Positions 41,516 through 64,000 of a DNA stretch of 64,000 nt are shown here, one piece after another. The stretch lies in contig NZ_CDBL01000073.1 of the NCBI RefSeq assembly GCF_000820005.1, forward strand, positions 287,947-351,946, in the 5' to 3' direction. The position numbers and the translations under genes were made by a program. How positions within the stretch are numbered: the stretch's first letter is position 1; each line of letters begins with the position of its first letter. The DNA is from Aeromonas piscicola (GTDB lineage: Bacteria; Pseudomonadota; Gammaproteobacteria; Enterobacterales; Aeromonadaceae). The notes under the pieces were generated by a model. The model searched no databases and was not told where the DNA came from. It saw only the letters and a list, made by a program, of their open reading frames with translations.

Positions 41516-43396
41516 ATGATGTCCGTCAGTAACCAATGTTTGTTGATGCAGATCCAGCCCACCATCTTGCGCTTTGCCAAGATGCTGGCCAGCGTGCTGC
41601 AACTGGAAGTGGAAATTGTCGACGCCAACATGGTGCGGGTGGCGGGAACCGGCCCTTACGGCACGTTTTTCGGCCGCCAGCTGGAGGGAGACTCCCGCCT
41701 GTTGCGCTACGTGATCGAACACCAGAGTGAGAAGATAGTCACCCACACCAGCGAGGATCCTGTCTGTGAGGGGTGCAGCTGCAAGGATAGCTGCCGGGAA
41801 CGCGCCTTCCTCGGGGTGCCCATCATGGTGGAGGAGACCTGTATCGGGGTCATCAGCCTGGTGGCCTTCAACGCCGAGCAGCAGGCCCGCCTCAATAACA
41901 ATCTGCAGGAGGTGTGCGACTATGTGCAACACATCTCCAGCATCTTCGTGGCCAAGCTGCTCGATTCCCGCGGCTTGTCAGACGGGGTCAACAAGGTGTT
42001 CCTCAACCTGATGAGCCACATGGATCAGGGCTGCCTGCTGCTCGACGAGAAGAGCCAGCTGCGCTATGCCAACGAGGTGGCGCTCAAGCAGCTCAACTGC
42101 CAGCAGGAGCAGTTGCTGGGGCGCGAGATTGGCGTACGTCCGCTCACCTTCGCCCAGCAGGGGCTGACCGGGCACATGCAGCACATCATCACACTGGCGG
42201 ATCGCCAGGAGCTCATCATAGGCCAGCTGCACCATGTGCAGGGCCAGCAGCTGTTTCTGATGGCATTTCACCAGTCCCACTCTGCCCTGAGCCAGCCGCT
42301 GGAGCCGGACGAGGGCATGGCGCTGCTGATCGGTGAAAGCAAGCCGATGCGGGCGCTGAAAAAACTGCTCCATCGCATCGCCCTGAGCCCCTCCAGCGTG
42401 CTGGTCTGCGGCGAGAGCGGCACCGGCAAGGAGGTGGTGGCCTGCGCCATTCACCGGCTCAGCCCGCGTCATGACAAGCCCTTCATCGCCATCAACTGCG
42501 CCGCCATTCCGGAGCAGTTGCTGGAGAGCGAGCTGTTTGGCTACGTGAAGGGGGCCTTCACCGGCGCCTCCAGCGGCGGCAAGCAGGGGCTGATCCAGGC
42601 CGCCCACCAGGGCACCCTGTTTCTCGACGAGATAGGGGACATGCCGCTCACCATGCAGGCCAAGCTGCTGCGGGTGCTGGAGCTGCGGGAGGTGACGCCG
42701 ATAGGTGCCAGCCGCCCCGTGCCGGTGGACATTCGCATCATAGCCGCGACCCACCAGCATCTGGAGCAGTACATTGCCGAGGGCAAGTTTCGCGAGGATC
42801 TCTTCTATCGCCTCAACGTCATCCCCATCCACCTGCCGCCGCTGCGCGAGCGGGCAGGGGACGTGGCGCTGCTGACCCACTACTTCCTCAACCTGCACAC
42901 CAGCCGCATCGGCCTCATCTATCCGGGGCTGAGCCCGGAGGTGATGGGCCTGCTCGAGGGGTATCGCTGGCCTGGCAACGTGCGCGAGCTCAGCAACCTC
43001 ATCGAATACCTGGTCAACGTGGTGCAGGCGGGGGAGGTGATCGAGAGCATACTCCTGCCCCCCAACATATTGCGCAACCAGCGCTGTGACGCTGAGGTGG
43101 CGCCTGAAGATATGCATCTGCTGCGCAACCAATGGCGCAGCGCCGGGGAAAACCCGGTGGTCGCGGGTCGTCCCGCGCCGGGCATTGCCTCTCCCGCCAT
43201 GACTGAAACCGGCCCATCCGAGCGAGGTCTGGAGCTGCCCCTCGGGGAAAACGGGCTGGAGAGCATGGAAAAGCAGGTGATAGAGGAGACCTTGCAGCGC
43301 CTTGGCAACAAGAAGCTGGCCGCCCAGGCGTTGGGGATTGGGATTGCGACCCTCTATCGCAAGATAAAGAAGTATGAGATCGCCGTGCAGGCCTGA
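41516..43396 (+). CDS. ygeV: Sigma-54-dependent transcriptional activator YgeV
   Basis: 626 residues from MMSVSNQCLLMQIQPTILRFA. AAGGGA lies 8 nt before 41516; an earlier ATG at 41477 lacks a ribosome site. Order: a sensor domain (about 10-150, GAF-like) with four cysteines C84, C87, C89 and C93 (CEGCSCKDSC); a PAS-like region (about 160-280); the AAA+ sigma-54 interaction domain (about 285-520) with GESGTGKE and ELFGYVKGAFTGA; and a Fis-type HTH (about 585-625, KKLAAQALGIGIATLYRKIKKY). Close to E. coli YgeV along its length. It probably activates ygeW and ygfK at the sigma-54-type promoters described here. Unlike E. coli, where I recall it divergent, it lies in the same direction as ygeW. 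Confidence 0.92.
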   Translation: MMSVSNQCLLMQIQPTILRFAKMLASVLQLEVEIVDANMVRVAGTGPYGTFFGRQLEGDSRLLRYVIEHQSEKIVTHTSEDPVCEGCSCKDSCRERAFLGVPIMVEETCIGVISLVAFNAEQQARLNNNLQEVCDYVQHISSIFVAKLLDSRGLSDGVNKVFLNLMSHMDQGCLLLDEKSQLRYANEVALKQLNCQQEQLLGREIGVRPLTFAQQGLTGHMQHIITLADRQELIIGQLHHVQGQQLFLMAFHQSHSALSQPLEPDEGMALLIGESKPMRALKKLLHRIALSPSSVLVCGESGTGKEVVACAIHRLSPRHDKPFIAINCAAIPEQLLESELFGYVKGAFTGASSGGKQGLIQAAHQGTLFLDEIGDMPLTMQAKLLRVLELREVTPIGASRPVPVDIRIIAATHQHLEQYIAEGKFREDLFYRLNVIPIHLPPLRERAGDVALLTHYFLNLHTSRIGLIYPGLSPEVMGLLEGYRWPGNVRELSNLIEYLVNVVQAGEVIESILLPPNILRNQRCDAEVAPEDMHLLRNQWRSAGENPVVAGRPAPGIASPAMTETGPSERGLELPLGENGLESMEKQVIEETLQRLGNKKLAAQALGIGIATLYRKIKKYEIAVQA

Positions 43397-43404
43397 TCCT
43401 CACA

Positions 43405-43427
43405 CCGCCGCTGGCCACAAGCGGCGG
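43405..43427 (+). terminator. Hairpin after ygeV
   Basis: CCGCCGCT and AGCGGCGG form an 8-bp stem with a 7-nt loop, 8 nt past the stop, followed by TCTGCTCG. Without a T run it may only slow or partly stop transcription. Confidence 0.45.
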
Positions 43428-43437
43428 TCTGCTCGCA

Positions 43438-43540
43438 GATAATGGCTGCGCCTTGAGCAAGGCCATTATCATTATGATAATTCCCCCGCATCGCCTATCA
43501 ATTAACTGGCCGTATCTGATAGCCAGGGTGATAATTATCA
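43438..43540. promoter_or_regulatory. Putative YgeV enhancer region upstream of ygeW
   Basis: ATTATCATTATGATAAT (43465-43481) is a perfect inverted repeat ATTATCA-N3-TGATAAT. A second palindrome, TGATAATTATCA, is at 43529-43540. GATAATGGC (43438-43446) also pairs with GCCATTATC (43462-43470). The remaining 416-bp gap (43397-43812) is AT-rich and holds the ygeW promoter. The same repeat design occurs upstream of ygfK. Assignment to YgeV is inference. Confidence 0.55.
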
Positions 43541-43812: not shown

Positions 43813-45000
43813 ATGAAAGCAGTGAACCAGTTAATCAAAGAGATCAATGAGCTCAAATCCAACCTGCATGAAAAGGACTTTCTGCTGACCTGGGAGCAAA
43901 CCCCCCAGGAGCTGGCGCTGGTCCTCAAGCTGGCTGAGGCCCTCAAGGGGCTGCGGGCCGAGAATATAGCCACCAGGCTGTTCAATACCGGCCTTGGCAT
44001 CTCGGTGTTTCGTGACAACTCCACCCGCACCCGTTTCTCCTATGCCTCCGCCCTCAACCTGCTCGGCCTCACCCAGCAGGATCTGGACGAGGGCAAATCC
44101 CAGATTGCCCACGGCGAGACGGTGCGTGAAACCGCCAACATGATCTCGTTTTGCGCCGATGCCATCGGCATTCGCGATGACATGTATCTGGGGGCGGGCA
44201 ACGCCTACATGCGTGAAGTGGGCGCGGCACTGGACGAAGGGTTCGAGAAGGGGGTGCTGCCCCAGCGTCCGGCCCTGGTCAACCTGCAGTGCGACATTGA
44301 TCACCCGACCCAGTCCATGGCTGATCTCGCCTGGCTGCAGGAGCACTTCGGCAGCCTGGAGAGCCTCAAGGGCAAGAAGATTGCCATGACCTGGGCCTAC
44401 TCCCCGAGCTACGGCAAGCCGCTCTCCGTGCCCCAGGGCATCATAGGGCTGATGACCCGCTTCGGCATGGACGTGACCCTGGCCCATCCCGAAGGGTATG
44501 ACCTGATCCCGGACGTGATCGCGGTGGCCCATGAGAACGCCAAGGCCTCCGGCGGGAGCTTTCGTCAGGTCACCTCCATGGAAGAGGCCTTCAAGGATGC
44601 AGACATCGTCTATCCCAAGTCCTGGGCTCCCTATCAGGTGATGGAGCAGCGTACCGAGCTGCTGCGGGCCAACGATCACGCCGGCCTCAAGGAGCTGGAA
44701 AAGCAGTGCCTGGCGCAAAACGCCAAGCATCAGGATTGGCACTGCACCGAAGAGATGATGGCCCTCACCAAGGGGGGCGAGGCGCTCTATATGCACTGCC
44801 TGCCGGCCGATATTACCGGCGTCTCCTGTCAGGCGGGCGAGGTGAGCGAAGGGGTATTCGAGAAATACCGCATCGCCACTTATAAAGAGGCGAGTTGGAA
44901 GCCCTATATTATCGCCGCCATGATAGTTGCCCGTAAATTCTCGGCGCCAGGCGCCGCGCTAGAGGGCTTGATCAAAGAGGCGCAAAAACGCGTCAAATAA
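43813..45000 (+). CDS. ygeW: Carbamoyltransferase-like protein YgeW
   Basis: 395 residues (E. coli 396). A member of the aspartate/ornithine carbamoyltransferase fold; the true acceptor was long unknown, and it is now placed in purine breakdown. The carbamoyl-phosphate loop SVFRDNSTRTRFSY is at about 68-81, followed by HPTQSMADL (about 159) and HCLPADITG (about 325). The start ATG is at 43813; GGGG lies 6 nt upstream. It begins the catabolic gene run, 125 bp before ygeX. It may transfer the carbamoyl group released from the opened purine to phosphate for YqeA, but the direction is inferred from the neighbour. Confidence 0.92.
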   Translation: MKAVNQLIKEINELKSNLHEKDFLLTWEQTPQELALVLKLAEALKGLRAENIATRLFNTGLGISVFRDNSTRTRFSYASALNLLGLTQQDLDEGKSQIAHGETVRETANMISFCADAIGIRDDMYLGAGNAYMREVGAALDEGFEKGVLPQRPALVNLQCDIDHPTQSMADLAWLQEHFGSLESLKGKKIAMTWAYSPSYGKPLSVPQGIIGLMTRFGMDVTLAHPEGYDLIPDVIAVAHENAKASGGSFRQVTSMEEAFKDADIVYPKSWAPYQVMEQRTELLRANDHAGLKELEKQCLAQNAKHQDWHCTEEMMALTKGGEALYMHCLPADITGVSCQAGEVSEGVFEKYRIATYKEASWKPYIIAAMIVARKFSAPGAALEGLIKEAQKRVK

Positions 45001-45125: not shown

Positions 45126-46325
45126 ATGTCCCAATTCTCCCTGAAGATGGATATTGCCGATAACCGTTTTTTTACCGGTGAATCCCTGCCCCTGTTTTCT
45201 CGCGCCGAGGCGCAGAAGGCTCGTGCCTTTCATAAAAAACTGGCCGGTTATGAGCCGACCCCCCTGTGCGACCTGAAAGCGCTGGCCGCCTATATCGGGG
45301 TGAAAAATATATTGGTCAAGGACGAGTCAAAGCGCTTTGGCCTCAACGCCTTCAAGATGCTGGGGGGCGTCTACGCCATCGCCAACCTGCTCTGTGAAAA
45401 ATATGGGGTGGCAGTCGAGGATTTCTCCTTCGATCTCATCAAACGCACCATCAAGGAGCCGATGACCTTTGCCACCACCACAGATGGCAACCACGGTCGC
45501 GGCGTTGCCTGGGCCGCCAAGCAGGTAGGTCAGCATGCGGTGGTCTACATGCCCAAGGGCTCGGCGCAGGAGCGGGTGGATCACATCCTCAATCTCGGTG
45601 CCGAGTGCATCGTCACCGACATGAACTATGACGACACCGTGCGCCTGACCATGAAGATGGCCGAAGAGCGCGGCTGGCTCATAGTCCAGGACACCGCCTG
45701 GGAGGGCTACACCAAGATCCCGACCTGGATCATGCAGGGTTACTCCACCTTGGCCGACGAAGCGGTCGAACAGATGCAGGGAATGGGCACCAAGCAGCCC
45801 ACCCACGTGCTGCTGCAGGCCGGGGTCGGGGCGCTGGCGGGCGGGGTGCTGGGTTATCTGGTGGACTGCTTCGGGGCGAAAAATCTGCACAGCATAGTTA
45901 TCGAGCCGGATCAGGCTGACTGCATATACCGCTCCGGCGTAGCGGGGGAGATGGTCAACGTGGGGGGCGATATGCGCACCATCATGGCTGGTCTCGCCTG
46001 CGGCGAACCCAACCCCCTCGGCTGGCCGCTGCTCAAAAGCTGCACCACCCAGTTCATCTCCTGCCATGACAAGGTATCGGCATTGGGGATGCGGGTGCTG
46101 GGCAACCCCCTTGGCAGCGATCCTCGCATCATCTCCGGTGAGTCCGGCTCGGTCGGCACCGGCGTGCTGGCGGCAGTGCGTCACCACCCGGATCGCGCGG
46201 CGCTGATGGCTCGCCTCGGGCTGGATAGCAACTCGGTGGTGCTCATCATCAACACCGAAGGGGATACCGATGTGACCCACTACCGGGAAGTGGTGTGGGA
46301 AGGCAAACATCCAGCCTGCGAGTAA
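45126..46325 (+). CDS. ygeX: 2,3-diaminopropionate ammonia-lyase
   Basis: 399 residues from MSQFSLKMDIADNRFF at 45126 (GAGG 6 nt upstream). A PLP enzyme that splits 2,3-diaminopropionate to pyruvate and two ammonia. The PLP lysine is K77 in SKRFGLNAFKMLGG, the same position as in E. coli. The substrate loop FATTTDGNHGRGVAWAA and the glycine loop GVGALAGGVLGYL are intact. It probably performs the carbon-releasing step of purine breakdown. The extra 12 in-frame upstream residues are not supported. A 14-bp direct repeat covers its stop codon. Confidence 0.95.
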   Translation: MSQFSLKMDIADNRFFTGESLPLFSRAEAQKARAFHKKLAGYEPTPLCDLKALAAYIGVKNILVKDESKRFGLNAFKMLGGVYAIANLLCEKYGVAVEDFSFDLIKRTIKEPMTFATTTDGNHGRGVAWAAKQVGQHAVVYMPKGSAQERVDHILNLGAECIVTDMNYDDTVRLTMKMAEERGWLIVQDTAWEGYTKIPTWIMQGYSTLADEAVEQMQGMGTKQPTHVLLQAGVGALAGGVLGYLVDCFGAKNLHSIVIEPDQADCIYRSGVAGEMVNVGGDMRTIMAGLACGEPNPLGWPLLKSCTTQFISCHDKVSALGMRVLGNPLGSDPRIISGESGSVGTGVLAAVRHHPDRAALMARLGLDSNSVVLIINTEGDTDVTHYREVVWEGKHPACE

Positions 46326-46465: not shown

Positions 46466-47683
46466 ATGAGCAAGCAAATTCCGTTTGAAATGGTGTTGGA
46501 GAAGGCCCATCAGTACAAGGCCGAGATGAGTCAGTTCCTGCGCGACATGATCGCCATCCCGAGTGAAAGCTGCGACGAGAAGCGGGTAGTGCTGCGCATC
46601 AAAGAGGAGATGGAGAAGGTCGGTTTCGACAGGGTCGAGATAGATCCCATGGGCAACATTCTCGGCTATATCGGCCAGGGCCCGCACCTGATCGCCATGG
46701 ATGCCCACATCGATACCGTGGGGGTCGGCAACCGCGCCAACTGGACCTTCGACCCCTATGAGGGGATGGAAGATCACGAGATCATCGGCGGCCGTGGCGC
46801 CTCCGATCAGGAAGGGGGCATGGCCTCCATGGTCTATGCCGGCAAGCTCATCAAGGAGATGGGGCTGGAAGATCAATATACCCTGCTGGTGACAGGCACA
46901 GTGCAGGAGGAGGACTGCGACGGTCTGTGCTGGCAGTACATCATAGAGCAGAGCAAGATCCGCCCCGAGTTCGTGGTCAGTACCGAGCCGACCGACTGCC
47001 AGATCTACCGTGGCCACCGTGGCCGCATGGAGATCCGCGTCGAGGTACAAGGGGTGAGCTGCCACGGCTCGGCGCCGGAGCGCGGTGACAACGCCATCTT
47101 CAAGATGGGCCCGATCCTGGGCGAGTTGCAGGCGCTCAGCCACAACCTCGGCAACGACGACTTCCTCGGCAAGGGCACATTGACCGTCTCCGAGATCTTC
47201 TTCACTTCGCCAAGCCGCTGCGCCGTGGCGGACAGCTGCGCTGTCTCCATCGACCGCCGCCTCACCTGGGGCGAGAGCTGGCAAGGTGCGCTCGACGAGA
47301 TCCGCGCCCTGCCTGCGGTGCAAGCCGCCGGTGCCGAGGTCTCCATGTACCAGTACGATCGTCCGGCCTACACCGGTCTGGTCTATCCGACCGAGTGCTA
47401 CTTCCCGACCTGGAAGGTGGAAGAGGATCACATCACGGTCCGGACCCTCTCCAAGGCTTATCGCGAGCTGTTCAACAAGGAGCCTGTGGTGGACAAGTGG
47501 ACCTTCTCGACCAACGGGGTCTCCATCATGGGCCGCCACGGCATTCCGGTCATCGGTTTTGGCCCGGGCAAAGAGCCGGAAGCCCACGCGCCGAACGAGA
47601 AGACCTGGAAAGAGCATCTGGTCAAGTGCGCCGCCATGTATGCGGTGATCCCCATGCTCTATCTGGCCGAGCTGGACAAGTAA
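46466..47683 (+). CDS. ygeY: YgeY, M20 metallopeptidase-family hydrolase
   Basis: 405 residues from [18 protein letters not shown] at 46466 (GGAG 8 nt upstream). Amidohydrolase/deacetylase of the M20 family with two metal sites: AMDAHIDTV (about 76-84), [10 protein letters not shown] (about 106-115) and the base Glu in [10 protein letters not shown] (about 140-149). A lid/dimerisation domain lies at about 185-300. It is described in annotations as a selenium-metabolism-linked hydrolase because it travels with YqeB and YqeC. It likely hydrolyses an opened-ring intermediate, giving the substrate of YgeX. Directly between ygeX and hyuA on the same strand. Confidence 0.92.
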
Positions 47684-47692
47684 GGGGGCTGC

Positions 47693-47760
47693 CGGGCGGT
47701 GATTTTCATCACCGCCCGTCTGTTGAAAGTGCCCCGTCTCCATTGAGGCGGGGCTTTGCT
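47693..47760 (+). terminator. Two successive hairpins between ygeY and hyuA
   Basis: CGGGCGGTGAT/ATCACCGCCCG (perfect 11 bp, loop TTTC, 47693-47718), then GCCCCGTCTC/GAGGCGGGGC (one wobble, 47731-47754) followed by TTTGCTGTTT. The second is terminator-like and probably lowers hyuA expression relative to ygeY. Confidence 0.65.
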
Positions 47761-47788
47761 GTTTGAAGTGATGTTCGAGGTGGTGGGG

Positions 47789-49225
47789 ATGAAACGGCTG
47801 ATCAAAAACGGTGTGCTGGTCGATGCACAGGGTGAATATCGTCAGGATCTGCTGATCGAAAATGGGGTGATCCTTGAGCGCGCCGCCGATATCCAGCCCG
47901 ATGGCGAGACCGAACTGATCGATGCCAGCGGTTGCTACGTGATGCCGGGCGGCATCGACGTCCACACCCACTTCAACATCGATGTGGGGATTGCCCGCAG
48001 TTGCGATGATTTTTTCAGCGGTACCCGTGCCGCCGCCTGTGGTGGCACCACCACCATCGTCGATCACATGGGATTTGGCCCGGTGGGGTGCAATCTGCAT
48101 CACCAGCTGGCCCGCTATCACGATTACGCCGCCGATCAGGCGGTGATCGACTACAGCTTTCACGGCGTGATCCAGCATGTGGATGACGCCATTCTCCATG
48201 AGATGGCCGCCATGGTGCAGGAGGAGGGGATCAGCAGCTTCAAGCTCTATCTCACCTACCAGTACAAGCTGGGGGACCATGACGTGCTGCGTGCGCTGGC
48301 CCGCCTCAAAGAGGTGGGGGCGCTCGCCACCGTCCATCCCGAGAACGATGCCGCCATCGCGGCGCGCCGTGCGGCCCTGCTGGCCGCGGGCCACCATGAA
48401 CCCTGGTATCACCCGCAGAGCCGTCCGCTTGAGTGCGAGGCGGAGGCCATCGCCCGGATGATCAATCTGGCGGGGCTGGCGGGCAATGCGCCGCTCTATA
48501 TCGTTCATCTCTCCAACGGATTGGGACTGGAGTATCTGAAACTGGCACGCCGTCAGGGTCAGCCGGTTTGGGTGGAGACCTGCCCGCAATATCTGCTACT
48601 CGATGACAGCTGCTACTACCGCGAAGACGGGGTCGACTTCCTGTTGAGCCCGCCACTGCGCGGGCGCAGCGAGCAGGACAAGCTGTGGGTCGGCATCAGC
48701 GCGGGTGATATCGATACGGTGGCGACCGATCACTGCAACTTCTCCCACGCCCAGCGCATGACCCTGTCAGGCGGCGATTTCAGCCGTTGCCCCAACGGGC
48801 TGCCCGGGGTCGAAAACCGGATGCTGCTGCTGTTTGCCCACGGGGTGCTCGGTGGGCGCATCTCGCCGTCGCGCTTCGTGGCGCTTACCTGCGCCAATCC
48901 GGCCAGGCTGTTCGGCCTCTGGCCGCGCAAGGGTAACCTGCAACCGGGGGCCGACGCCGATCTGGTGCTGATGGATCCCTGTGGTGAGACCCAGATCCGT
49001 CACGCCGCATTGCATGACAATGGCGACTACAGCCCCTACGAGGGGATGCATTGCCCTGGCCGGCTGAGGATGACCCTGAGTCGTGGCCAGACAGTGGCCC
49101 GCGATGGCGAATTTACCGGGCAACGGGGGCACGGCCGCTTTCTGGCGCGGGCACCCTTTGATCCGCTGCTGGGCGCCGCGGTCCGCGCGCCATTCCCTTG
49201 CGCCACACAGTTGGCAACCCGCTAG
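47789..49225 (+). CDS. hyuA: Dihydropyrimidinase / D-phenylhydantoinase HyuA
   Basis: 478 residues from MKRLIKNGVLVDAQGEY at 47789 (GAGGTGGTGGGG just upstream); E. coli HyuA is a little shorter. A binuclear-metal cyclic amidohydrolase that opens hydantoin or dihydropyrimidine rings. Metal ligands: H59 and H61 in DVHTHF, the carboxylated Lys in SSFKLYLTY, the His in TVHPEND and YIVHLSN, and the Asp in DTVATDHCNF. In the island it may open a hydantoin-like product of purine breakdown. The C-terminal 20 residues (AVRAPFPCATQLATR) extend past the usual end. Confidence 0.92.
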   Translation: MKRLIKNGVLVDAQGEYRQDLLIENGVILERAADIQPDGETELIDASGCYVMPGGIDVHTHFNIDVGIARSCDDFFSGTRAAACGGTTTIVDHMGFGPVGCNLHHQLARYHDYAADQAVIDYSFHGVIQHVDDAILHEMAAMVQEEGISSFKLYLTYQYKLGDHDVLRALARLKEVGALATVHPENDAAIAARRAALLAAGHHEPWYHPQSRPLECEAEAIARMINLAGLAGNAPLYIVHLSNGLGLEYLKLARRQGQPVWVETCPQYLLLDDSCYYREDGVDFLLSPPLRGRSEQDKLWVGISAGDIDTVATDHCNFSHAQRMTLSGGDFSRCPNGLPGVENRMLLLFAHGVLGGRISPSRFVALTCANPARLFGLWPRKGNLQPGADADLVLMDPCGETQIRHAALHDNGDYSPYEGMHCPGRLRMTLSRGQTVARDGEFTGQRGHGRFLARAPFDPLLGAAVRAPFPCATQLATR

Positions 49226-50356: not shown

Positions 50357-50387
50357 TAAGATGGCCCCCCTTGGCATAAGATGGGCC
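50357..50387 (+). repeat. Direct repeat before the EamA gene
   Basis: TAAGATGGCCC (50357-50367) and TAAGATGGGCC (50377-50387) are offset by 20 bp, about two helical turns, in the promoter region of the permease gene at 50414. Possible regulator site. Confidence 0.45.
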
Positions 50388-50413
50388 AGCAGCAGAGGCG
50401 ACAAGGCAGAGCA

Positions 50414-54833: not shown

Positions 54834-54917
54834 CTTGTCTGTTTCAAGGGGCTGCCTTGTGAATGAGCCCCATTTATTCACCCAGTCAATGAGCAGAGCC
54901 GCTGCAAGGAGATCATC

Positions 54918-57900
54918 ATGGGCGATATTATGCGACCCGTTCCGTTCAAGAACCTTCTGACCCGTATTTTCGCGGAATATAAAGAGAGTCAGAGCATTTT
55001 CGGTATTCCCGCCGCGCAATTCTATCGCAAGCAGGACGAGCGCAAGATCAAGGTGTTCGGTGAAACCTGCGAAACCCCCATAGGCCCGGCAGCTGGCCCC
55101 CATACCCAGTTGGCCCAGAACATCGTCACCTCCTGGCTGACCGGCGGGCGCTTTATCGAGCTCAAGACGGTGCAGATCCTGGACCGTCTCGAACTGGAAA
55201 AGCCCTGCATCGATGCCGAGGATGAGTGCTTCAATACCGAGTGGTCCACCGAGTTCACCCTGCCCAAGGCGTTCGATGAGTACCTGAAAGCCTGGTTTGC
55301 CCTCTATCTGCTGGAGGAGGTGTTTGACCCCCGCCTCGATGGAGAGGCCAAATCCTTCATCTTCAACATGAGCGTGGGCTACAACCTCGACGGCATCAAA
55401 CAGCCGCCGATGCAGCAATTCATCCACAGCCTGATGGATGCCAGCACCAGTCCGAAGTTTGCCGAGTACCAGCAGGTGGTGCGCGAACTGGTGGCCGACC
55501 CGCAATTTATCGCCGAGCTGGGTCTGGGCTCCCGTCGCGATCGTCTGCAACAGCTGGCGGATCGCATTCCAGCCGATATGGTGCACGGCCTCACCCTCTC
55601 CACCATGCACGGCTGCCCGCCCAACGAGATCGAGGCCATCTGCCGCTACATGCTGGAAGAGAAGGGGCTCAACACCTTCGTCAAACTGAACCCGACCCTG
55701 CTGGGCTACCCGCGGGTGCGCGAGATCCTCGACACCTGCGGCTTTGATTACATCGGTCTGAGCGAAGCGTCGTTCGATCACGACCTCAAGCTGGATCAGG
55801 CCAAAGGGATGCTGGTTCGCCTGATGGCGCTGGGGGCCGAGAAGGGGCTGACCTTCGGGGTCAAGCTGACCAACACGCTCGGCACCATCAACCGCAAGGG
55901 GGCGTTGCCGGGGGATGAGATGTACATGTCCGGCCGGGCGCTGTTCCCGCTCTCCATCAACGTGGCGGCCGTGCTCTCCCGCGCCTTCGATGGCAAGCTG
56001 CCCATCTCCTACTCGGGCGGCGCCAGCAAGTTCAACATTGCAGAGATCTTCGAAACCGGCATCCGTCCTATCACCATGGCCACCGACCTGCTGAAACCGG
56101 GTGGCTACCTGCGCCAGATTGAGTGCCTCAAAGAGATAGATGCGTCGGGCAGCTGGGGCATGAGTCAGGTGGATGTGGCCAAGCTGGAGCGGCTTGCCGC
56201 CAAGGCCCTCACCATGGACTACACCCAGAAGGAGTGGAAGTCCGAGGATCGCATCGAAGTGGGCGGTGGCCTGCCGCTGACCGACTGCTACGTGGCGCCC
56301 TGTGTCACTGCCTGCGCCGTGCATCAGGATATTCCCGAGTACATTCGCCTGATGGGCGAGGGTGAATACGTGGCTGCCCTTGAGCTGATTTATCAGCGCA
56401 ACGCCTTGCCTGCCATCACCGGCCATATCTGCGATCACCAGTGCCAGTACAACTGCACCCGTCTCGACTACGACAGCCCGCTCAATATCCGCGAGCTCAA
56501 GAAGGTCGCGCTGGAGCGCGGCTGGGAAGGGTACAAGGCGCGCTGGCACAAGCCGGCAGGCAGCGGTGACAAGCACCCGGTTGCGGTGATTGGCGCAGGC
56601 CCGGCCGGTCTCTCCGCCGGTTACTTCCTGGCCCGTGCCGGTCATCCGGTCACCGTGTTCGAGCGTGAAGTCGATGCCGGTGGCGTGGTCAAGCACATCA
56701 TCCCCGAGTTCCGCATTCCGGCGGAGCTTATCCAGCACGACATCGACTTTGTCGCCGCCCACGGGGTCAAGTTCGAATTTGGCTGCGATCCGGCGCTCAC
56801 CGTCGACAAGCTGCACGCCCAGGGCTTTACCTATGTCTTCGTCGGTATCGGTGCCGACAAGAATGGCGGCATGCGCCTCGAAGGGGGTCATGATCGGGTC
56901 TACAAATCCTTTAACTTCCTGCGCAGCTTCAATCAGGGTAAACCGCTGCCGCTCGGCCGCCATGTCGCCGTGATCGGGGCGGGCAATACCGCCATGGATT
57001 GCGCCCGCGCCGCCCTCAAGGTGCCTGGTGTCAGCGATGTGACCGTGATCTACCGTCGCAGTGAGAAAGAAATGCCCGCCTATCGCGAGGAGGTTCTGGA
57101 AGCGGTGGAGGATGGAGTGCGTTTTTGCTTCCTCACCAATCCGGAGCGCTTTGACAAAGATGGCAAGCTTGTCGTGCGGATGATGGCGCTGGGGGATCCT
57201 GACGAGCAGGGTCGCCGCCGTCCGGTGCCCACAGAGCAGACCGAAGTGATGCAGATGGATGCCTTGATCACCGCCATCGGCGAACAGCCTGATTGCGAAG
57301 TGCTGAAAGCCATGGGCATTCCCCTTGGCAGCGATGGCTGGCCCGAGGTGGATAGCCAGACTGGCGAGAGCAGCCGTCGCAACGTCTTCCTGATTGGTGA
57401 CGTGCAGAGCGGCCCGTCCTCCATCGTCGGTGCCATCGGTGGTGCCCGCCGCGCTGCAGATCTGGTGCTGGCCCGTGAGCATATCGCTGGCAGTCAGGCT
57501 GAGGTATCAATCCAGCCGTCGGGCAAAGACGAGATCTACCGCCGCAAGGGGAGCATCGCCGTCACCATGGTCGACAAGGGCGAGCGGGAGGCCTTCGTGG
57601 CGCAAGAGGCGCACCGTTGCCTTGAGTGCAACTACCTCTGCAGCAAGTGCGTGGACGTTTGCCCCAACCGGGCCAACGTCGCCATTGCGGTGCCGGGCTT
57701 CAAGGACCAGTTCCAGACATTGCACCTGGATGCCTACTGCAACGAGTGCGGCAACTGCGCCCAGTTCTGCCCGTGGCAGGGCAAGCCCTATCAGGACAAG
57801 GTCACCATCTTCAGCCTGCCGCAGGACTTCGACAACAGCCGCAACCCCGGTTTCTATCTGGCCCAAACCGGCGAAGGGTGTGGTGAGCTGCAGGTGCGTC

Positions 57901-58040
57901 AGGATGGCGAGACCTATCGCCTGACCATCGATGCCCAGAGCCGGATCAAGGATGCCCCCGAGGCGCTCGCTGACATGTGCCGCATCATCAGCCATGTCCA
58001 TGCTCATCATCACTACCTGCTGGGGGCCGTCGAGGCCTGA
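54918..58040 (+). CDS. ygfK: YgfK, large Fe-S flavoprotein oxidoreductase
   Basis: 1040 residues starting MGDIMRPVPFKNLL, as in E. coli YgfK. The N-terminal part (about 30-430) resembles dihydroorotate-dehydrogenase-like barrels. A GltD-like Fe-S region starts at CYVAPCVTACAVHQDIPEY (about 456). The FAD loop VAVIGAGPAGLSAGYFLARAG is at about 554 and the NAD(P) loop HVAVIGAGNTAMDCARAA at about 682. Two C-terminal ferredoxin motifs are CLECNYLCSKCVDVCP (about 900) and CNECGNCAQFCP (about 941). It was annotated as a selenate reductase subunit. In this island it more likely passes electrons to or from the XdhD/YgfM hydroxylase. It has its own sigma-54-type promoter. Confidence 0.93.
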   Translation: MGDIMRPVPFKNLLTRIFAEYKESQSIFGIPAAQFYRKQDERKIKVFGETCETPIGPAAGPHTQLAQNIVTSWLTGGRFIELKTVQILDRLELEKPCIDAEDECFNTEWSTEFTLPKAFDEYLKAWFALYLLEEVFDPRLDGEAKSFIFNMSVGYNLDGIKQPPMQQFIHSLMDASTSPKFAEYQQVVRELVADPQFIAELGLGSRRDRLQQLADRIPADMVHGLTLSTMHGCPPNEIEAICRYMLEEKGLNTFVKLNPTLLGYPRVREILDTCGFDYIGLSEASFDHDLKLDQAKGMLVRLMALGAEKGLTFGVKLTNTLGTINRKGALPGDEMYMSGRALFPLSINVAAVLSRAFDGKLPISYSGGASKFNIAEIFETGIRPITMATDLLKPGGYLRQIECLKEIDASGSWGMSQVDVAKLERLAAKALTMDYTQKEWKSEDRIEVGGGLPLTDCYVAPCVTACAVHQDIPEYIRLMGEGEYVAALELIYQRNALPAITGHICDHQCQYNCTRLDYDSPLNIRELKKVALERGWEGYKARWHKPAGSGDKHPVAVIGAGPAGLSAGYFLARAGHPVTVFEREVDAGGVVKHIIPEFRIPAELIQHDIDFVAAHGVKFEFGCDPALTVDKLHAQGFTYVFVGIGADKNGGMRLEGGHDRVYKSFNFLRSFNQGKPLPLGRHVAVIGAGNTAMDCARAALKVPGVSDVTVIYRRSEKEMPAYREEVLEAVEDGVRFCFLTNPERFDKDGKLVVRMMALGDPDEQGRRRPVPTEQTEVMQMDALITAIGEQPDCEVLKAMGIPLGSDGWPEVDSQTGESSRRNVFLIGDVQSGPSSIVGAIGGARRAADLVLAREHIAGSQAEVSIQPSGKDEIYRRKGSIAVTMVDKGEREAFVAQEAHRCLECNYLCSKCVDVCPNRANVAIAVPGFKDQFQTLHLDAYCNECGNCAQFCPWQGKPYQDKVTIFSLPQDFDNSRNPGFYLAQTGEGCGELQVRQDGETYRLTIDAQSRIKDAPEALADMCRIISHVHAHHHYLLGAVEA

Positions 58041-58070: not shown

Positions 58071-59399
58071 ATGTTTATTCTGAAGAACGTCACTGCCGTC
58101 CAGCTGGAGCCGACCCGGGTGCTGGAAGGGGGGGATATCGCCATCGAAGGGACGCTGATCAAAGCGGTGGGGCCCAATCTGCGGGCCCTCTACCCGGAGG
58201 CCAACTATCGGGAGATGGGCGGCAAGCTGGTGATGCCGGGCATCGTCTGCGCCCACAACCACTTCTACTCCGGCCTGTCGCGGGGGATCATGGCCAACAT
58301 CGCCCCCTGCCCGGACTTTATCTCCACCCTGAAAAACCTCTGGTGGCGGCTCGATCGGGCGCTCGATGAAGAGTCCCTCTACTACAGCGGTCTCATCTGC
58401 TCGCTGGAAGCGATCAAGAGCGGCTGCAGCGCGGTGATCGACCACCACGCTTCGCCCAACTTCATCAAGGGCTCCCTCAACGTGCTGCGCAAAGGGTTTG
58501 TGGAGGCGGGTCTGCGCGGCATGACCTGCTTTGAGACCACGGATCGCAACGGCGGTCTCGCCGAGCTGCAGGCCGGGGTGGAGGAGAACATCCTGTTCGC
58601 GCAAGCCATTGATGCCGCCAAGGCCAAGGGGAGCGAACCCTATCTGGTGGAAGCGCACATCGGCGCCCACGCCCCCTTCACCGTGCCCGACGAAGGGCTG
58701 GCCATGCTGCGCGAAGCGGTGCAGGTGACCGGTCGCGGTCTGCATATCCATGTGGCGGAAGACCGCTACGACATGGCGCACGGCCACCACCACTATGGCA
58801 AGGAGCCCATCGCCCGGCTGGATGAGTTTGGCCTTATCGACAGCAAATCCCTGGTGGCCCATGGCATCTACCTGAGCCCGGCCGACATCGAGCTGCTCAA
58901 CAGCCGCGATGCCTTCCTGGTGCACAACGCCCGCTCCAACATGAACAACCACGTGGGCTACAACATGCACTTGCCTGAGTACCGCAATCTTGCGCTCGGC
59001 ACCGATGGTATCGGCTCCGACATGCTCGAAGAGCTCAAGTTCGCCTATTTCAAGCACAAGGATGCCGGCGGCGCCCTGTGGCCCGACAGCTTTGCCCGCT
59101 TCCTGTGGAACGGCAACACATTGCTGGATCGCAATTTCGGCGCCAAATTTGGCCGCCTGGAGCCTGGCTACAAGGCCGATCTCACCATCTGCGACTACGA
59201 CTCACCGACTCCGCTGGCACCGCGCAACCTCGGCGGCCATCTCGCCTTTGGTATGGGCTCAGCCAGCGTCAACAGCGTGATGGTTGAGGGGCGCATGGTG
59301 TATCAGGATCGCGAGTTTCCGTTCGATGTCGCGCCCATTTACGAGCAGGCCAGCAAGGTGGCGAGCCGCCTGTGGCAACGGATGGATCAGCTGGCCTAA
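58071..59399 (+). CDS. ssnA: SsnA, metal-dependent aminohydrolase
   Basis: 442 residues, AAGGAG 8 nt before the ATG. An amidohydrolase of the cytosine/guanine deaminase group. Metal ligands: HNH in VCAHNHFYSGLSRG (about 63-75), the His in EAHIGAHAPF and HIHVAE (about 225), the His in VAHGIYL (about 262), and the Asp in LGTDGIGSD (about 309-317). E. coli SsnA was first noted for stationary-phase viability loss. In the purine island it probably deaminates or opens a purine ring. It starts 30 bp after ygfK and lies 80 bp before ygfM, in the same run. Confidence 0.93.
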   Translation: MFILKNVTAVQLEPTRVLEGGDIAIEGTLIKAVGPNLRALYPEANYREMGGKLVMPGIVCAHNHFYSGLSRGIMANIAPCPDFISTLKNLWWRLDRALDEESLYYSGLICSLEAIKSGCSAVIDHHASPNFIKGSLNVLRKGFVEAGLRGMTCFETTDRNGGLAELQAGVEENILFAQAIDAAKAKGSEPYLVEAHIGAHAPFTVPDEGLAMLREAVQVTGRGLHIHVAEDRYDMAHGHHHYGKEPIARLDEFGLIDSKSLVAHGIYLSPADIELLNSRDAFLVHNARSNMNNHVGYNMHLPEYRNLALGTDGIGSDMLEELKFAYFKHKDAGGALWPDSFARFLWNGNTLLDRNFGAKFGRLEPGYKADLTICDYDSPTPLAPRNLGGHLAFGMGSASVNSVMVEGRMVYQDREFPFDVAPIYEQASKVASRLWQRMDQLA

Positions 59400-59479: not shown

Positions 59480-60256
59480 ATGATTGAGCAATTCTTCCGA
59501 CCCGAGCAACTGGGTCAGGCTTTGGAACTCAAGGCCCGCTTTGGCAACGACGCCGTCTACATGGGGGGCGGCAGCAAGCTTAACGCCGCGCCGACCCGCA
59601 CCGACAAGAAGGTCGCCATCTCGCTGGATAGGCTTGGGCTTGGCCAGATTGAGCAGCAGCACGGCCAGCTCCATATCGGCGCCACCGTCACCCTGCAGAC
59701 CCTCAAAGAGGATCCCCGCACCCCGGCCGCCCTGTGCGAGGCGCTGGGCTTTGTCTACTCCCGCCATCTGCGCAATCAGGCCACCCTCGGCGGCGAACTT
59801 GCCTGCCAGCAGCAGGACTCCCCCTTGCTGCCGGTGCTGCTGGTACTCGAAGCGGTAGTGGTGCTGGAGAACAACCTGCTGCAACCCATCGACGCCTATC
59901 TGGCGGGTCAGCGCAATGCCCTGGTGCTGGGAGTTGTGCTGCCGGAGCCTGAACTGCGCTGCGCCACCCGCCGCATCAGCCGCAACGCCGACGGGCTGGC
60001 GGTGATGACCGCCGCCGTGGCCCTCGACAGCATTGGCGATATGCGGGTGGCCGTCGCTGGCGTCACCCCGCAGCCGATGCGTTTGCGGGATCTGGAGCGC
60101 CGCGATCTGCACGATGCCGCGCTGGAGGCCGCCGTGAGCGAGCTGATTTCGCCCCGTGAGGATCTGGCGGGCAGCATAAGTTACAAGCGGTATATCACCG
60201 GCGTGGTGGTGGCGGATCTGCTGGTGGACTGCCAGCAGCAGGAGGTACAAGCATGA
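59480..60256 (+). CDS. ygfM: YgfM, FAD-binding subunit of the molybdenum hydroxylase
   Basis: 258 residues, AAGGA 6 nt before the ATG. The FAD-binding PCMH domain (about 1-170) has YMGGGSKLNAAPTR and YSRHLRNQATLGGELACQQ, which bind FAD phosphate and isoalloxazine in xanthine-dehydrogenase medium subunits; the CO-dehydrogenase-type C-terminal domain follows. It moves electrons between XdhD and an outside carrier. It overlaps xdhD by 4 nt (ATGA), so the two are made together. Confidence 0.92.
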   Translation: MIEQFFRPEQLGQALELKARFGNDAVYMGGGSKLNAAPTRTDKKVAISLDRLGLGQIEQQHGQLHIGATVTLQTLKEDPRTPAALCEALGFVYSRHLRNQATLGGELACQQQDSPLLPVLLVLEAVVVLENNLLQPIDAYLAGQRNALVLGVVLPEPELRCATRRISRNADGLAVMTAAVALDSIGDMRVAVAGVTPQPMRLRDLERRDLHDAALEAAVSELISPREDLAGSISYKRYITGVVVADLLVDCQQQEVQA

Positions 60257-63132
60257 TGGAACTCAACTTTACCCTGAACGGTGCCCTGCGTACCGTCATC
60301 TGCAAAGCCGGTGACAATGCCCAGCGGGTGCTGTTCAACCAGTGCCGGATGCATTCGGTGCGCAACAGCGACGACGGCTTCGGTTTCGCCGGCTCCGACG
60401 CCATTCTCTTCAACGGCAAGGTGATCAACGCCTCTCTGCTGATCGCCGCCCAGCTGGAGGGGGCGCAGGTACGCACCGCCGAATCGCTGGGCAGCTGGAA
60501 CCAGCTCAGCCTGGTACAGCAGGCGATGGTGGATGTGGGGGTGGTGCAGTCCGGTTACAACGATCCGGCCGCCGCGCTCATCGTCACCGACCTGCTTGAT
60601 CGCCACCCCGAGCCCACCCGTGATCAAATCGACGATGCACTCTCTGGCCTGTTTCACCGCGATGGCGGTTACCAGCAGTTCTATCAGGCCATCGAGCTTG
60701 CCTGCTCACGGATGAAGGATCCCGATTATCTGTGCCAGATCGCCCCGGAGTTTCGCGATGATCTGCGCCATATCGGCAAGAGCTGCCCGAAAGTGGACGC
60801 CGCCAAGATGGTGCAGGCCAAGCCCTGCTATGTGGAAGACAGGGTTACCGAAGATGCGTTGATCATCAAGATGCTGCGAAGCCCCCATCCCCATGCGGTG
60901 ATCACCAAACTCGACGTGAGCCGCGCGCAAGCGCTGCCGGGTGTGGTGCATGTCATTACCTATCTCAACTGCCCGGATGTGTTTTACACCCCGGGTGGCC
61001 AGAGCGCCCCCGAGCCGTCACCGCTCGATCGCCGCATGTTCAGCCGCAAGGTGCGCCACGTGGGGGACAGGGTCGCCGCTGTGGTGGCCGAGAGTGAAGC
61101 GGTCGCGCTGGCGGCCCTGAAACTCATCGAGGTCGAATATCAGGTATTGCCTTCGGTCATGAACATAGACCAGGCGATGGCCCCCAATGCACCCCTGGTG
61201 CACGACGAACCCATTATCTATATGGCCGGGGCGCCTGCGGATCTGGAGCAGCAGAACGCCTGCTCGGTGCGTCGTGGCGACGAGCACATGATCATCAACT
61301 TCCCCATCGGCTCCCGCCCGCACGAGAACCTGGCCGCCAGCGTCCATGGCCAGATCGGTGACGTGGCAAAAGGGTTTGCCGAGGCGGACGAGATTGTCGA
61401 GCGCACCTACGAATCGACCCAGGCCCAGCAGTGCCCGACCGAACCGCACATCTGTTTTACCTACATGGATGGGGATCGTCTGGTCATTCACGCCTCCACC
61501 CAGGTGCCGTGGCACGTGCGCCGTCAGGTGGCGCGCATCGTCGGCCTCAAGCAACATCAGGTGCACGTGATCAAGGAGCGGGTAGGGGGCGGCTTTGGCT
61601 CCAAGCAGGACATCCTGCTGGAAGAGGTGTGCGCCTGGGCGACCAAGGTCACCGGCCGTCCGGTCACCTTCCGCTACACCCGTGAAGAGGAGTTCATCAG
61701 CAACACCTCTCGTCACGTGGCCAAGGTGAAGGTGAAAGTGGGGGCCAAAAAAGATGGCACCATCACCGCCATCGAGATGGATTTTCGGGCCAACACCGGC
61801 CCGTACGGCAACCACTCCCTGACGGTGCCGAGCAACGGCCCGGCGCTCTCTTTGCCGCTCTACCCGTGCGACAACGTGCGCTTTACCGTCAACACCTACT
61901 ACAGCAACATCTGTCCAACTGGCGCCTATCAGGGTTACGGTGCGCCCAAGGGCAACTTCGCGCTGACCATGGCCATTGCGGAACTTGCCGAGAAACTGGG
62001 GATCGATCAGCTCGACATGGTGGAGCACAACCGGGTGCACGAAGGGGACATCCTCAAGGTGCTGGGGGCCATTGGCGAGGGCAAGATGCCGACTTCTGTG
62101 CCCCACGCCGCCAGCTGCGCACTCGAGCCCATCCTCAAGCAGGGTCGCGAGCTCATCGCGTGGGATAGCCCCAAACCCGCTGAAGGTGATTGGCGCATCG
62201 GTCGTGGCGTCGCCATCATCATGCAAAAATCGGGGATCCCCGATATCGATCAGGCCAACTGCATGGTCAAGCTGGAATCGGACGGCACCTTTATTGTCCA
62301 CTCAGGTGGCGCCGATATCGGTACAGGTCTGGATACAGTGGTGGCCAAGCTGACCGCCGAGGTGCTCGGTTGCCCGCTCAGCGATGTGCATGTGATCTCC
62401 GGCGACACCGATCACGCCCTGTTCGACAAGGGGGCCTACGCCTCGTCCGGTACCTGCTTCTCCGGCAACGCGGCCAAGATGGCGGCCGAGAACCTCAAGG
62501 CGAAGATCCTGCTGCACGGCGCCGCCATGCTGGGCGAGCCGGTAGAAGATGTGGAGCTGGAGTTCCCGGGCCTGGTGCGTGGCAAGCTGGGGGAGGTCTC
62601 CTTTGCCAAGATCGCCCACAAGTCGGAGACCGGCACCGGTTTTGGCATTCTGGTGGGCACCGCCAGCTACATCACCTCTGAGCTCGCCTTCCCGTATGGC
62701 GCCAACTTCGCCGAGGTGGCGGTCAACGTCAGAACCGGCCAGATCCGTCTCGACAAGTTCTACGCCCTGCTCGACTGCGGCACCCCCATCAACCCGGAAC
62801 TGGCGCTCGGTCAGATCTACGGGGCGACCATGCGGGCCATCGGTCACACCATGACGGAGGAGATCTGCTACGACGGCAAGGGCATTCCGCTCACCCGGGA
62901 TCTGAAGAGCTATGGCGCGCCCAAGATTGGCGACATTCCGCGCGATTTTCGGGCCTTCCTGGTGCCGAGTGATGACAAGGTCGGCCCTTACGGCGCCAAG
63001 TCCATCTCGGAGATCGGGGTGAACGGGGCAGCGCCTGCCATCGCCACCGCCATCCATGACGCCTGCGGTGTCTGGCTGCGCAAATGGCACTTCACGCCGG
63101 AACAGATCCTGCGCGAACTGGGCAAGCTGTAG
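60253..63132 (+). CDS. xdhD: XdhD, molybdenum hydroxylase catalytic subunit
   Basis: 959 residues, GGAGG 7 nt before the ATG. The N-terminal region (about 1-150) has the shape of a [2Fe-2S] ferredoxin domain plus linker, but the cysteine motif is replaced (RNSDDGFGFAGSDAILFNG, residues 37-55), so it probably carries no cluster. The Mo domains (about 170-959) show GGFGSKQDILLEE, GAYQGYGAPKGNFALTMA, GGADIGTGLDT, SGDTDHALFDKG and the catalytic Glu at about 920 in KSISEIGVNGAAPA. It oxidises purines such as hypoxanthine or xanthine, probably with a labile selenium on Mo, given YqeB and YqeC. It has no in-frame TGA, so no selenocysteine. Confidence 0.93.
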   Translation: MMELNFTLNGALRTVICKAGDNAQRVLFNQCRMHSVRNSDDGFGFAGSDAILFNGKVINASLLIAAQLEGAQVRTAESLGSWNQLSLVQQAMVDVGVVQSGYNDPAAALIVTDLLDRHPEPTRDQIDDALSGLFHRDGGYQQFYQAIELACSRMKDPDYLCQIAPEFRDDLRHIGKSCPKVDAAKMVQAKPCYVEDRVTEDALIIKMLRSPHPHAVITKLDVSRAQALPGVVHVITYLNCPDVFYTPGGQSAPEPSPLDRRMFSRKVRHVGDRVAAVVAESEAVALAALKLIEVEYQVLPSVMNIDQAMAPNAPLVHDEPIIYMAGAPADLEQQNACSVRRGDEHMIINFPIGSRPHENLAASVHGQIGDVAKGFAEADEIVERTYESTQAQQCPTEPHICFTYMDGDRLVIHASTQVPWHVRRQVARIVGLKQHQVHVIKERVGGGFGSKQDILLEEVCAWATKVTGRPVTFRYTREEEFISNTSRHVAKVKVKVGAKKDGTITAIEMDFRANTGPYGNHSLTVPSNGPALSLPLYPCDNVRFTVNTYYSNICPTGAYQGYGAPKGNFALTMAIAELAEKLGIDQLDMVEHNRVHEGDILKVLGAIGEGKMPTSVPHAASCALEPILKQGRELIAWDSPKPAEGDWRIGRGVAIIMQKSGIPDIDQANCMVKLESDGTFIVHSGGADIGTGLDTVVAKLTAEVLGCPLSDVHVISGDTDHALFDKGAYASSGTCFSGNAAKMAAENLKAKILLHGAAMLGEPVEDVELEFPGLVRGKLGEVSFAKIAHKSETGTGFGILVGTASYITSELAFPYGANFAEVAVNVRTGQIRLDKFYALLDCGTPINPELALGQIYGATMRAIGHTMTEEICYDGKGIPLTRDLKSYGAPKIGDIPRDFRAFLVPSDDKVGPYGAKSISEIGVNGAAPAIATAIHDACGVWLRKWHFTPEQILRELGKL

Positions 63133-63150
63133 TCACAACAGAGGCAGAGA

Positions 63151-63180
63151 CCGGCAGGGGGGGCAAGCTCCCCCTGCCGG
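63151..63180 (+). terminator. GC-rich hairpin between xdhD and xanQ
   Basis: CCGGCAGGGG and CCCCTGCCGG are perfect complements (10 bp, extended by one G-C pair) with a short loop, followed by ATCAACCC. The missing T tract suggests attenuation or mRNA protection and not a full stop. Confidence 0.5.
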
Positions 63181-63255
63181 ATCAACCCGGCTCACTGTGG
63201 GGTGTGATGCTCCGGGGTTATTGGATCGTTTTCGATACGCCGGGAGTAATGAAGG

Positions 63256-64000
63256 ATGTCTAAGAAATCGCGCAAAGACTCTGATCTTATCTACGCCTTG
63301 GAAGATAAGCCCCCCTTTGGTCAGTCGCTGGTCGGGGCAGTGACCCATCTGCTGGCCATACTGGTTCCTATGGTTGCACCGGCCCTGATCGTCGGGGCAG
63401 CCCTTAATCTTTCCCAAGAGATCACCACCTATCTGGTCTCGATGTCGATGATCGCCTCCGGCATCGGTACCTGGTTGCAAGTGCATCGTTACGGGCCAAT
63501 TGGCTCGGGACTCCTTTCCATCCAGTCGGTCAACTTCTCGTTCGTCACCGTGATGATCTCCATCGGGACCGCCATGGGAAAGGAGGGGATCGACGAAGCC
63601 CAGATCATCTCCTCGTTGATGGGGATCTCCTTCGTCGGAGCCTTTCTGGTGATGGGGGCATCGTTCGTGCTGCCCTATCTGACCCGAGTCATCACCCCCA
63701 CAGTGAGCGGTATCGTGGTGCTGATGATCGGTCTGTGTCTCATCAAGGTCGGCATCATCGACTTTGCAGGCGGTATGGTGGCCAAGAGCAGCGGAACCTT
63801 CGGTAACTATGAAAATCTCGGTGTCGGCTTGCTGGTGTTGGCGGTGGTCATCGGTTTCAACTGCTGCAGGAGCCCACTGCTGCGCATGGGGGGGATCGCC
63901 ATCGGCTTGCTGGTGGGCTATCTGGTCTCCATGATGCTGGGGATGGTGGACTTCTCTGTCTTGCAGGGGTTGCCCCTGATCACCGTACCCATGCTGTTCA
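63256..64000 (+). CDS. xanQ: Xanthine permease XanQ, 3' end cut by window edge
   Basis: The first 248 residues of an NCS2/NAT-family purine:H+ symporter in the inner membrane, running off the window. MSKKSRKDSDLIYALEDKPPFGQSLVGAVTHLLAILVPMV keeps His31, essential in E. coli XanQ, and GSGLLSIQSVNFSFVTVM includes the TM3 QxxNxxF site. TPTVSGIVVLMIGLCLIKVGIIDFAGGMVAKSSGTFGNYENLGVGLLVL is nearly identical to XanQ. GAAGG lies directly before the ATG and GGGAG further up. It supplies the xanthine or hypoxanthine used by the island. YgfU (uric acid) is a less likely alternative. Confidence 0.93.
   Translation, partial: MSKKSRKDSDLIYALEDKPPFGQSLVGAVTHLLAILVPMVAPALIVGAALNLSQEITTYLVSMSMIASGIGTWLQVHRYGPIGSGLLSIQSVNFSFVTVMISIGTAMGKEGIDEAQIISSLMGISFVGAFLVMGASFVLPYLTRVITPTVSGIVVLMIGLCLIKVGIIDFAGGMVAKSSGTFGNYENLGVGLLVLAVVIGFNCCRSPLLRMGGIAIGLLVGYLVSMMLGMVDFSVLQGLPLITVPMLF

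Follow-up and report, generated by a model that had tools for sequence, protein, structure and literature searches.

A purine-catabolic island of Aeromonas piscicola probably encodes reductive urate breakdown and an XdhD lacking iron–sulfur clusters at the usual places

We analysed a stretch of 64,000 nucleotides from contig NZ_CDBL01000073.1 of Aeromonas piscicola (hereafter the window), which carries a purine-catabolic island in the order ygeV, ygeW, ygeX, ygeY, hyuA, yqeA, yqeB, yqeC, mocA, ygfK, ssnA, ygfM, xdhD and xanQ. Taking both statements jointly, we consider it quite likely that the island encodes the reductive urate pathway and that its molybdenum (Mo) enzyme, XdhD, is without iron–sulfur (Fe/S) clusters at the usual places. 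The Escherichia coli gene order is kept and all fourteen genes are open frames in the window. An earlier reading of the same DNA (the original prediction) had claimed such an E. coli-like ygeV-to-xanQ set, and open reading frames (ORFs), NCBIfam models and identity to E. coli K-12 bear it out in interval and order; it had, however, missed a fifteenth gene, encoding an EamA/drug–metabolite transporter (DMT), and xanQ runs past the end of the window. Families were assigned using NCBIfam models at curated cut-offs, Pfam domains and identity to K-12 proteins. Coordinates are positions in the window, and several starts were picked by eye.

41477..43396, + strand: ygeV, sigma-54-dependent activator (alternative start 41516; AAA+ sigma-54 activator matches)
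43813..45000, + strand: ygeW, carbamoyltransferase (start by eye, ORF from 43801; NF005538 and TIGR03316 above cut-off; 87% identical to K-12)
45126..46325, + strand: ygeX, 2,3-diaminopropionate ammonia-lyase (start by eye, ORF from 45090; TIGR03528 above cut-off)
46466..47683, + strand: ygeY, M20 hydrolase (start by eye, ORF from 46448; TIGR03526 above cut-off)
47756..49225, + strand: hyuA, hydantoinase (D-hydantoinase-type dihydropyrimidinase; TIGR02033 above cut-off)
49328..50260, + strand: yqeA, carbamate kinase (TIGR00746 above cut-off)
50381..51337, + strand: EamA/DMT transporter (Pfam EamA)
51408..53012, - strand: yqeB, Mo-hydroxylase maturation protein of XdhC type (TIGR03309 above cut-off)
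53028..53882, - strand: yqeC (TIGR03172 above cut-off)
53875..54513, + strand: mocA, molybdopterin cytidylyltransferase (start by eye, uncertain; TIGR03310 above cut-off)
54918..58040, + strand: ygfK, flavo-Fe/S reductase using reduced nicotinamide adenine dinucleotide (phosphate), NAD(P)H, assigned to the dearomatising step (TIGR03315, 1616 bits; Pyr_redox_2 and Fer4_20)
58071..59399, + strand: ssnA, amidohydrolase (TIGR03314 above cut-off)
59480..60256, + strand: ygfM, subunit binding flavin adenine dinucleotide (FAD) (TIGR03312 above cut-off; Pfam FAD_binding_5)
60253..63132, + strand: xdhD, Mo enzyme, proposed urate 6-dehydroxylase (TIGR03313, 2069 bits; MoCoBD domains)
60253..60717, + strand: N-terminal domain of XdhD, residues 1-155, [2Fe-2S]-type fold without ligand cysteines
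63256..64000, continuing to 64785 in the contig, + strand: xanQ, xanthine permease (Pfam Xan_ur_permease; 77% identical to K-12 XanQ)

The ygfM stop overlaps the xdhD start, and YgfM keeps its FAD-type motifs as judged by eye, the YgfM comparison itself having given no invariant positions. YgeV is 59% identical to its K-12 counterpart and passed no equivalog cut-off among the 25 families shown. Apart from ygeV and xanQ, identity to K-12 ranges from 40% (yqeC) to 87% (ygeW), with the pathway enzymes at 54–87% and the accessory proteins YqeC and MocA at 40–46%; XdhD shares as much as 98% identity with its counterparts in named Aeromonas species. The contig beyond the window holds the rest of xanQ (the gene spans 703-2232 of L005, a contig stretch reaching past the window), guaD, a gene for a GhxQ-like permease, xdhA, xdhB and xdhC.

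In 2025, Li et al. described a reductive pathway in E. coli that leads from urate through 2,8-dioxopurine to pyruvate and was reconstituted from E. coli and Clostridioides difficile enzymes (PMC12507026). There, XdhD–YgfM converts urate to 2,8-dioxopurine, YgfK with SsnA yields ureidomethyl-hydantoin, HyuA yields diureidopropionate, YgeW and YgeY take off ureido groups, and YgeX forms pyruvate (PMC12507026); the order of ureido removal is disputed (PMC12990295). The original prediction had linked gut-bacterial homologues to anaerobic use of urate and purines, which agrees with this pathway. Compared with the K-12 uricolytic cluster (PMC12507026), the island has the same genes in nearly the same order, 40–87% identical, with the same predicted cluster-free XdhD. 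It differs in that xdhABC lies at the other end, downstream of guaD and the permease gene, that ygeV is on the same strand as ygeW, that an EamA transporter gene not present in the K-12 region is inserted, and that no ygfS, ygfT or uacT lies between the permease gene and xdhA.

The genes xdhD, ygfM, ygfK, ssnA, hyuA, ygeW, ygeY and ygeX all stand together in the island, and orthology suggests the same pathway function in Aeromonas. Guanine deaminase, XdhABC and the permeases would feed urate into it; XdhD with YgfM would strip the 6-oxygen of urate to give 2,8-dioxopurine, whose pyrimidine ring would be reduced and opened by YgfK and SsnA. HyuA would then open the hydantoin, YgeW (with YqeA making ATP) and YgeY would remove the two ureido groups, and YgeX would split diaminopropionate into pyruvate and ammonia. 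Uricase gave no match in the Aeromonas genome, and a UacT homologue (72%) is encoded elsewhere in it, outside the island. These assignments revise three roles in the original prediction: XdhD, taken there for a purine hydroxylase, is assigned as a urate reductase forming 2,8-dioxopurine; YgfK, its possible hydroxylation partner, is assigned as the reductase of the dearomatising step; and YgeY, placed there among the ring-opening enzymes, instead takes off a ureido group (PMC12507026; PMC12990295). XdhD thus most likely removes oxygen from urate rather than hydroxylating purines. Older annotation would instead make the island a generic locus for purine/hydantoin hydroxylation and selenate reduction, in keeping with database entries named, for example, putative selenate reductase or hypoxanthine oxidase; biochemical and mutant work on the E. 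coli orthologues (PMC12507026) argues against this, and we regard it as very improbable.

In xanthine oxidoreductase, eight cysteines hold two clusters in the order Mo, Fe/S I, Fe/S II, FAD, and changing ligand cysteine 43 or 51 gives insoluble or monomeric enzyme (PMC3509653); the centres lie less than 14 Å apart (PMC4334109). At the eight ligand positions the XdhD of the window has D40, A46, D49, S61, S100, N103, H135 and D137, and a cysteine occurs at none of the eight ligand columns in any of 168 XdhD rows. These rows comprise the window, 47 of 48 xdhD loci and the best 120 of 5,029 proteins, a redundant set in which organisms overlap; one protein, P0093, is truncated at the N-terminus, leaving four ligand columns unreadable. 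By their titles the loci come from 15 genera, and Photobacterium and Paludibacterium appear in addition among the protein names. The XdhD of K-12, on which the assays of PMC12507026 were done, matches these replacements except for a serine at the H135 position, though it is still annotated as an Fe-S binding subunit. In the same Aeromonas genome as the XdhD of the window, the XdhC subunit retains all eight cysteines and therefore serves as an internal control for the alignment of the ligand columns. In the best-aligned solved Fe/S subunit (3hrd chain D), cysteines stand opposite the same eight XdhD residues.

The remainder of the architecture is that of the family. The N-terminal domain (residues 1-155) retains the [2Fe-2S] domain fold, the Mo-binding domains and the xanthine oxidase family fold are present, and the whole-chain fold is shared with the Desulfovibrio aldehyde oxidoreductases 1dgj and 1sij. 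The Mo-site glutamates E397 and E920 are common to XdhD and to the xanthine oxidase family (for example Rhodobacter capsulatus xanthine dehydrogenase, XDH, 1jro); E397 is found in 34 of 34 aligned rows, and both E920 and E609, which corresponds to the E606-type glutamate of XdhD, are found in 168 of 168. A FAD subunit is likewise in place (YgfM, FAD_binding_5), whereas all eight [2Fe-2S] ligands of the family are missing from XdhD. The Desulfovibrio gigas enzyme, which has no FAD domain (PMC3958847), is the opposite case to XdhD–YgfM, with its FAD subunit and no cluster ligands. Judged by its sequence, XdhD should hold no Fe/S cluster at the usual places, which contradicts the label Mo/Fe-S enzyme, there being no cluster ligand left. 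We found no earlier statement in the literature searched that XdhD lacks Fe/S ligands, although texts not covered may mention it; the predicted cluster-free XdhD is apparently new, as a variant of a known enzyme fold.

Relatives with the full set of cysteines exist. A plasmid of Cetobacterium somerae (NZ_CP092520.1, 3033-21583; L086) encodes an XdhD-like single chain, 43.5% identical, beside a FAD subunit, in a cluster that also has dpaL, ygeY, ssnA and hydA. In contrast to the Aeromonas protein, this chain keeps all eight cysteines, and the cluster has a D-aminoacylase and a short 4Fe-4S protein, while neither YgeW nor YgfK is annotated in the stretch viewed. Its source is a Fusobacteriota species from zebrafish, and the FAD subunit is YgfM-like. 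Searching with the Cetobacterium protein yielded 4,053 matches; among the best 120, 117 have eight cysteines, two have seven and one is truncated, and E609 is shared by 116 and Q560 by 103. The 62 relatives included in the alignment are 38–55% identical to the XdhD of the window. Four of the six relatives scanned passed the TIGR03313 cut-off, so that this model lumps both kinds of protein.

When a tree was built from the Mo part only, all cysteine-free rows fell on one side of a single branch. Its support was 100 in the Shimodaira–Hasegawa-like approximate likelihood ratio test (SH-aLRT) with 57 chosen rows, a tree with long outgroup branches, and 100/100 in a repeat with 35 rows and no outgroups. 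The tree fits a single loss of the ligand cysteines. Besides the two proteins with seven cysteines, no intermediates were seen among the best 120 listed from each protein search. Cysteine-keeping outgroups are not perfect, since the first Haloarcula Fe/S subunit has a serine at one ligand position (by eye). In a separate observation, plasmid pNG700 of Haloarcula marismortui (L090) carries two pairs of Fe/S and Mo enzymes with yqeB, selD, yqeC and a luciferase-type flavin oxidoreductase, a stretch that recalls the F420-type variant reported for Chloroflexota (PMC12507026).

The textbook route from reduced nicotinamide adenine dinucleotide (NADH) through FAD and two Fe/S clusters to Mo cannot be drawn for XdhD. 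XdhD–YgfM was modelled by analogy with R. capsulatus XDH (PMC12507026), and with the ligand cysteines absent that relay is left without its two middle carriers. The Mo centre would have to be reduced by YgfM-bound reduced FAD or by a different donor, without a two-cluster relay. We favour slow direct flavin-to-Mo transfer inside the XdhD–YgfM complex, because NADH gave product with the XdhD–YgfM preparation (PMC12507026). An estimate with the standard tunnelling ruler (zero driving force, 0.7 eV) gives about 4e4/s at 14 Å, 10/s at 20 Å and 0.01/s at 25 Å. On balance, we lean towards gammaproteobacterial XdhD being a xanthine oxidase fold that works with no Fe/S cluster, its relay lost in one lineage and the domain kept, with electrons arriving by flavin-to-Mo transfer, from an outside donor or through substrate exchange.

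An outside donor is the main rival to direct transfer. Electrons would come from YgfK, which could dock through its [4Fe-4S] domains close to the Mo domain, or from a ferredoxin or flavodoxin. YgfK has Fer4_20 and flavin-type domains, with a C-terminal Fer4 match under the Pfam cut-off, its 4Fe-4S clusters have been reconstituted (PMC12507026), and ygfK lies with xdhD in 46 of 47 loci. Against this, NADH alone gave product, and the XdhD preparation is not said, in the passages of PMC12507026 consulted, to contain YgfK; an outside donor is possible but well short of probable. For AegA, the donor proposed earlier in E. coli, the AegA model had no match above cut-off in the genome (the UacF/YgfT model was not searched); its best match, 784 bits over residues 190-655, falls in a 475-residue frame that lacks the N-terminal half and looks like GltD. 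Ping-pong transhydroxylation, in which the Mo centre first oxidises another substrate (hypoxanthine, an aldehyde or formate, for example) and then reduces urate, would suit an enzyme without Fe/S ligands and agrees with the retention of E397, E609 and E920. NADH-driven product formation (PMC12507026) and the fact that ygfM still adjoins xdhD in all 47 loci speak against it, and we hold it to be unlikely. Both of these rivals share the pathway and the absence of clusters with the direct transfer that we favour.

Several points weigh against direct transfer in a cluster-free enzyme and the pathway around it. The assay used 10 µM enzyme with NADH, and the 30 kDa partner was only 'putatively YgfM' (PMC12507026), so that the donor is not firmly shown. 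The pathway evidence comes from E. coli and C. difficile enzymes, the Aeromonas proteins being known by sequence alone. The structural model of the N-terminal domain reached high confidence only with cysteine-bearing relatives in the alignment; without them the predicted local distance difference test (pLDDT) score was 68.6, and segments 35-48, 98-103 and 134-140, which contain six of the eight ligand positions, fell below 50. Since coverage of each protein search ended at its best 120 matches, intermediates may occur further down. Finally, eight newly conserved cysteines leave room for a relocated wire, that is, a new Fe/S cluster built from clade-specific Mo-domain residues: cysteines 192, 401, 460, 554, 670, 707, 735 and 938 are at least 97% conserved in XdhD and occur in 0–8 of the 120 best relatives. 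No two of them are less than 28 residues apart, none shows CxxC-type spacing, and some half of the columns of the Mo domain do not vary among the 34 aligned rows, which means that conserved cysteines are to be expected even with no cluster role; we regard relocation as more doubtful still than ping-pong exchange.

The original prediction also proposed a selenium-linked Mo enzyme and named the absence of selD and molybdopterin synthesis genes as a refutation; selD and moaA were both found in the genome. So were selA and mnmH, and since selD adjoins mnmH and selA is present, SelD has other uses. Of 37 Aeromonas genomes, 36 have SelD above cut-off, every one of the 20 XdhD-less genomes among them; the only genome without it, G013 (about 380 contigs), is XdhD-positive, and its missing selD may be an assembly gap. 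Because selD is nearly genus-wide and occurs in XdhD-less genomes, its presence gives no support to a selenium-dependent XdhD. For the proposed link, we consider yqeB and yqeC, both present here, the better sign. In C. difficile, a yqeB mutant lost the growth benefit of urate and a yqeC mutant had no clear phenotype (PMC11448449).

XdhD passes the TIGR03313 cut-off in 17 of 37 Aeromonas genomes. The 20 kb upstream were fetched for 15 of the 16 other positive genomes, and with one running off its contig, 14 loci were assessable. All 14 have hyuA through ygfM and the EamA transporter gene in order, which indicates that the arrangement is not due to chance; ygeW and ygeX are in view in 13, and ygeV upstream of ygeW in only four. 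The gap between the EamA gene and yqeB holds an extra gene in five loci (L099, L100, L102, L104 and L105) and none in the window; going by its sequence, this gene may encode a sodium/calcium exchanger. The sixth Aeromonas gap viewed (L103) is a different one, from yqeA to the EamA gene, and contains other genes.

Across genera, 48 xdhD loci were taken from genome records and 47 used. The one left out, L053, is a chimeric 7.7 kb contig (NZ_JAUFQN010000014.1) labelled Flavobacterium paronense, with scrambled E. coli-like ygfK, ssnA and xdhD that are probably contamination. In all 47, ygfM directly precedes xdhD, and ygfK and ssnA are present in all except L033. A single-chain YgfM–XdhD of 1215 residues (P0056), standing for a cluster of 43 sequences, is either a natural fusion or the product of frame errors at the overlapping stop and start. 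TIGR03313 matched only the window's own genome among 369 Gammaproteobacteria (E <= 1e-200), and two of 398 Pseudomonadota genomes were over cut-off, the window's own and G553; both samples were drawn evenly and do not measure the frequency of XdhD within the orders that carry it. The A. hydrophila locus was already tabulated in 2008 (PMC2432076; PMC2276186) as a selenium/Mo hydroxylase locus. It is the same island, with coordinates that agree with the XdhD match in G015 (PMC2432076), differing by species and sequence variation only, and the pathway chemistry was published later. As an island, the Aeromonas locus is thus ordinary, of a known kind and already known in the genus.

Candidate regulatory sites lie upstream of ygeW and ygfK.

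43467..43479, + strand: inverted repeat TATCATTATGATA, candidate activator site upstream of ygeW
54636..54648, + strand: inverted repeat TATCAAACTGATA, candidate activator site upstream of ygfK
54818..54834, + strand: sigma-54-like promoter TGGCCTGATTGTTGCTC upstream of ygfK (single match in the window)

The pattern TATCAN3-5TGATA has two matches in 64 kb, these two repeats, with 0.03 expected; the patterns for repeat and promoter were chosen after viewing the Aeromonas alignment. In 15 of 15 aligned Aeromonas sequences, the window included, TATCAAA-C/G-TGATA occurs upstream of ygfK, and TGGCCTGA-NN-GTTGC before ygfK is kept in the same number. In K-12 the corresponding gap contains a similar repeat, TATCATAATGATA, together with a sigma-54-like sequence recognised by eye, and the search pattern found no repeat between ygeV and ygeW of K-12. 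The repeat is also absent from L005, which holds the region upstream of xdhA. The sigma-54-like site is weak alone (0.13 expected, reached in 11 of 100 shuffles), and a scan with the general sigma-54 consensus gave 10 matches against 8.3 expected in the window and 3 against 2.2 in L005. Repeats and promoter-like site fit two putative operons under YgeV.

The island itself is of modest import, placing in Aeromonas a gut urate pathway relevant to gout whose genes were already tabulated, and the loss of the clusters matters more. If it is real, the published electron model of XdhD–YgfM (PMC12507026) lacks its middle, and E. coli strains engineered for lowering urate would rely on an electron transfer that lacks an explanation. 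The cluster-bearing relatives form a ready comparison set: with active-site residues shared, they and the cluster-free XdhD would make a natural pair for asking what the two clusters do.

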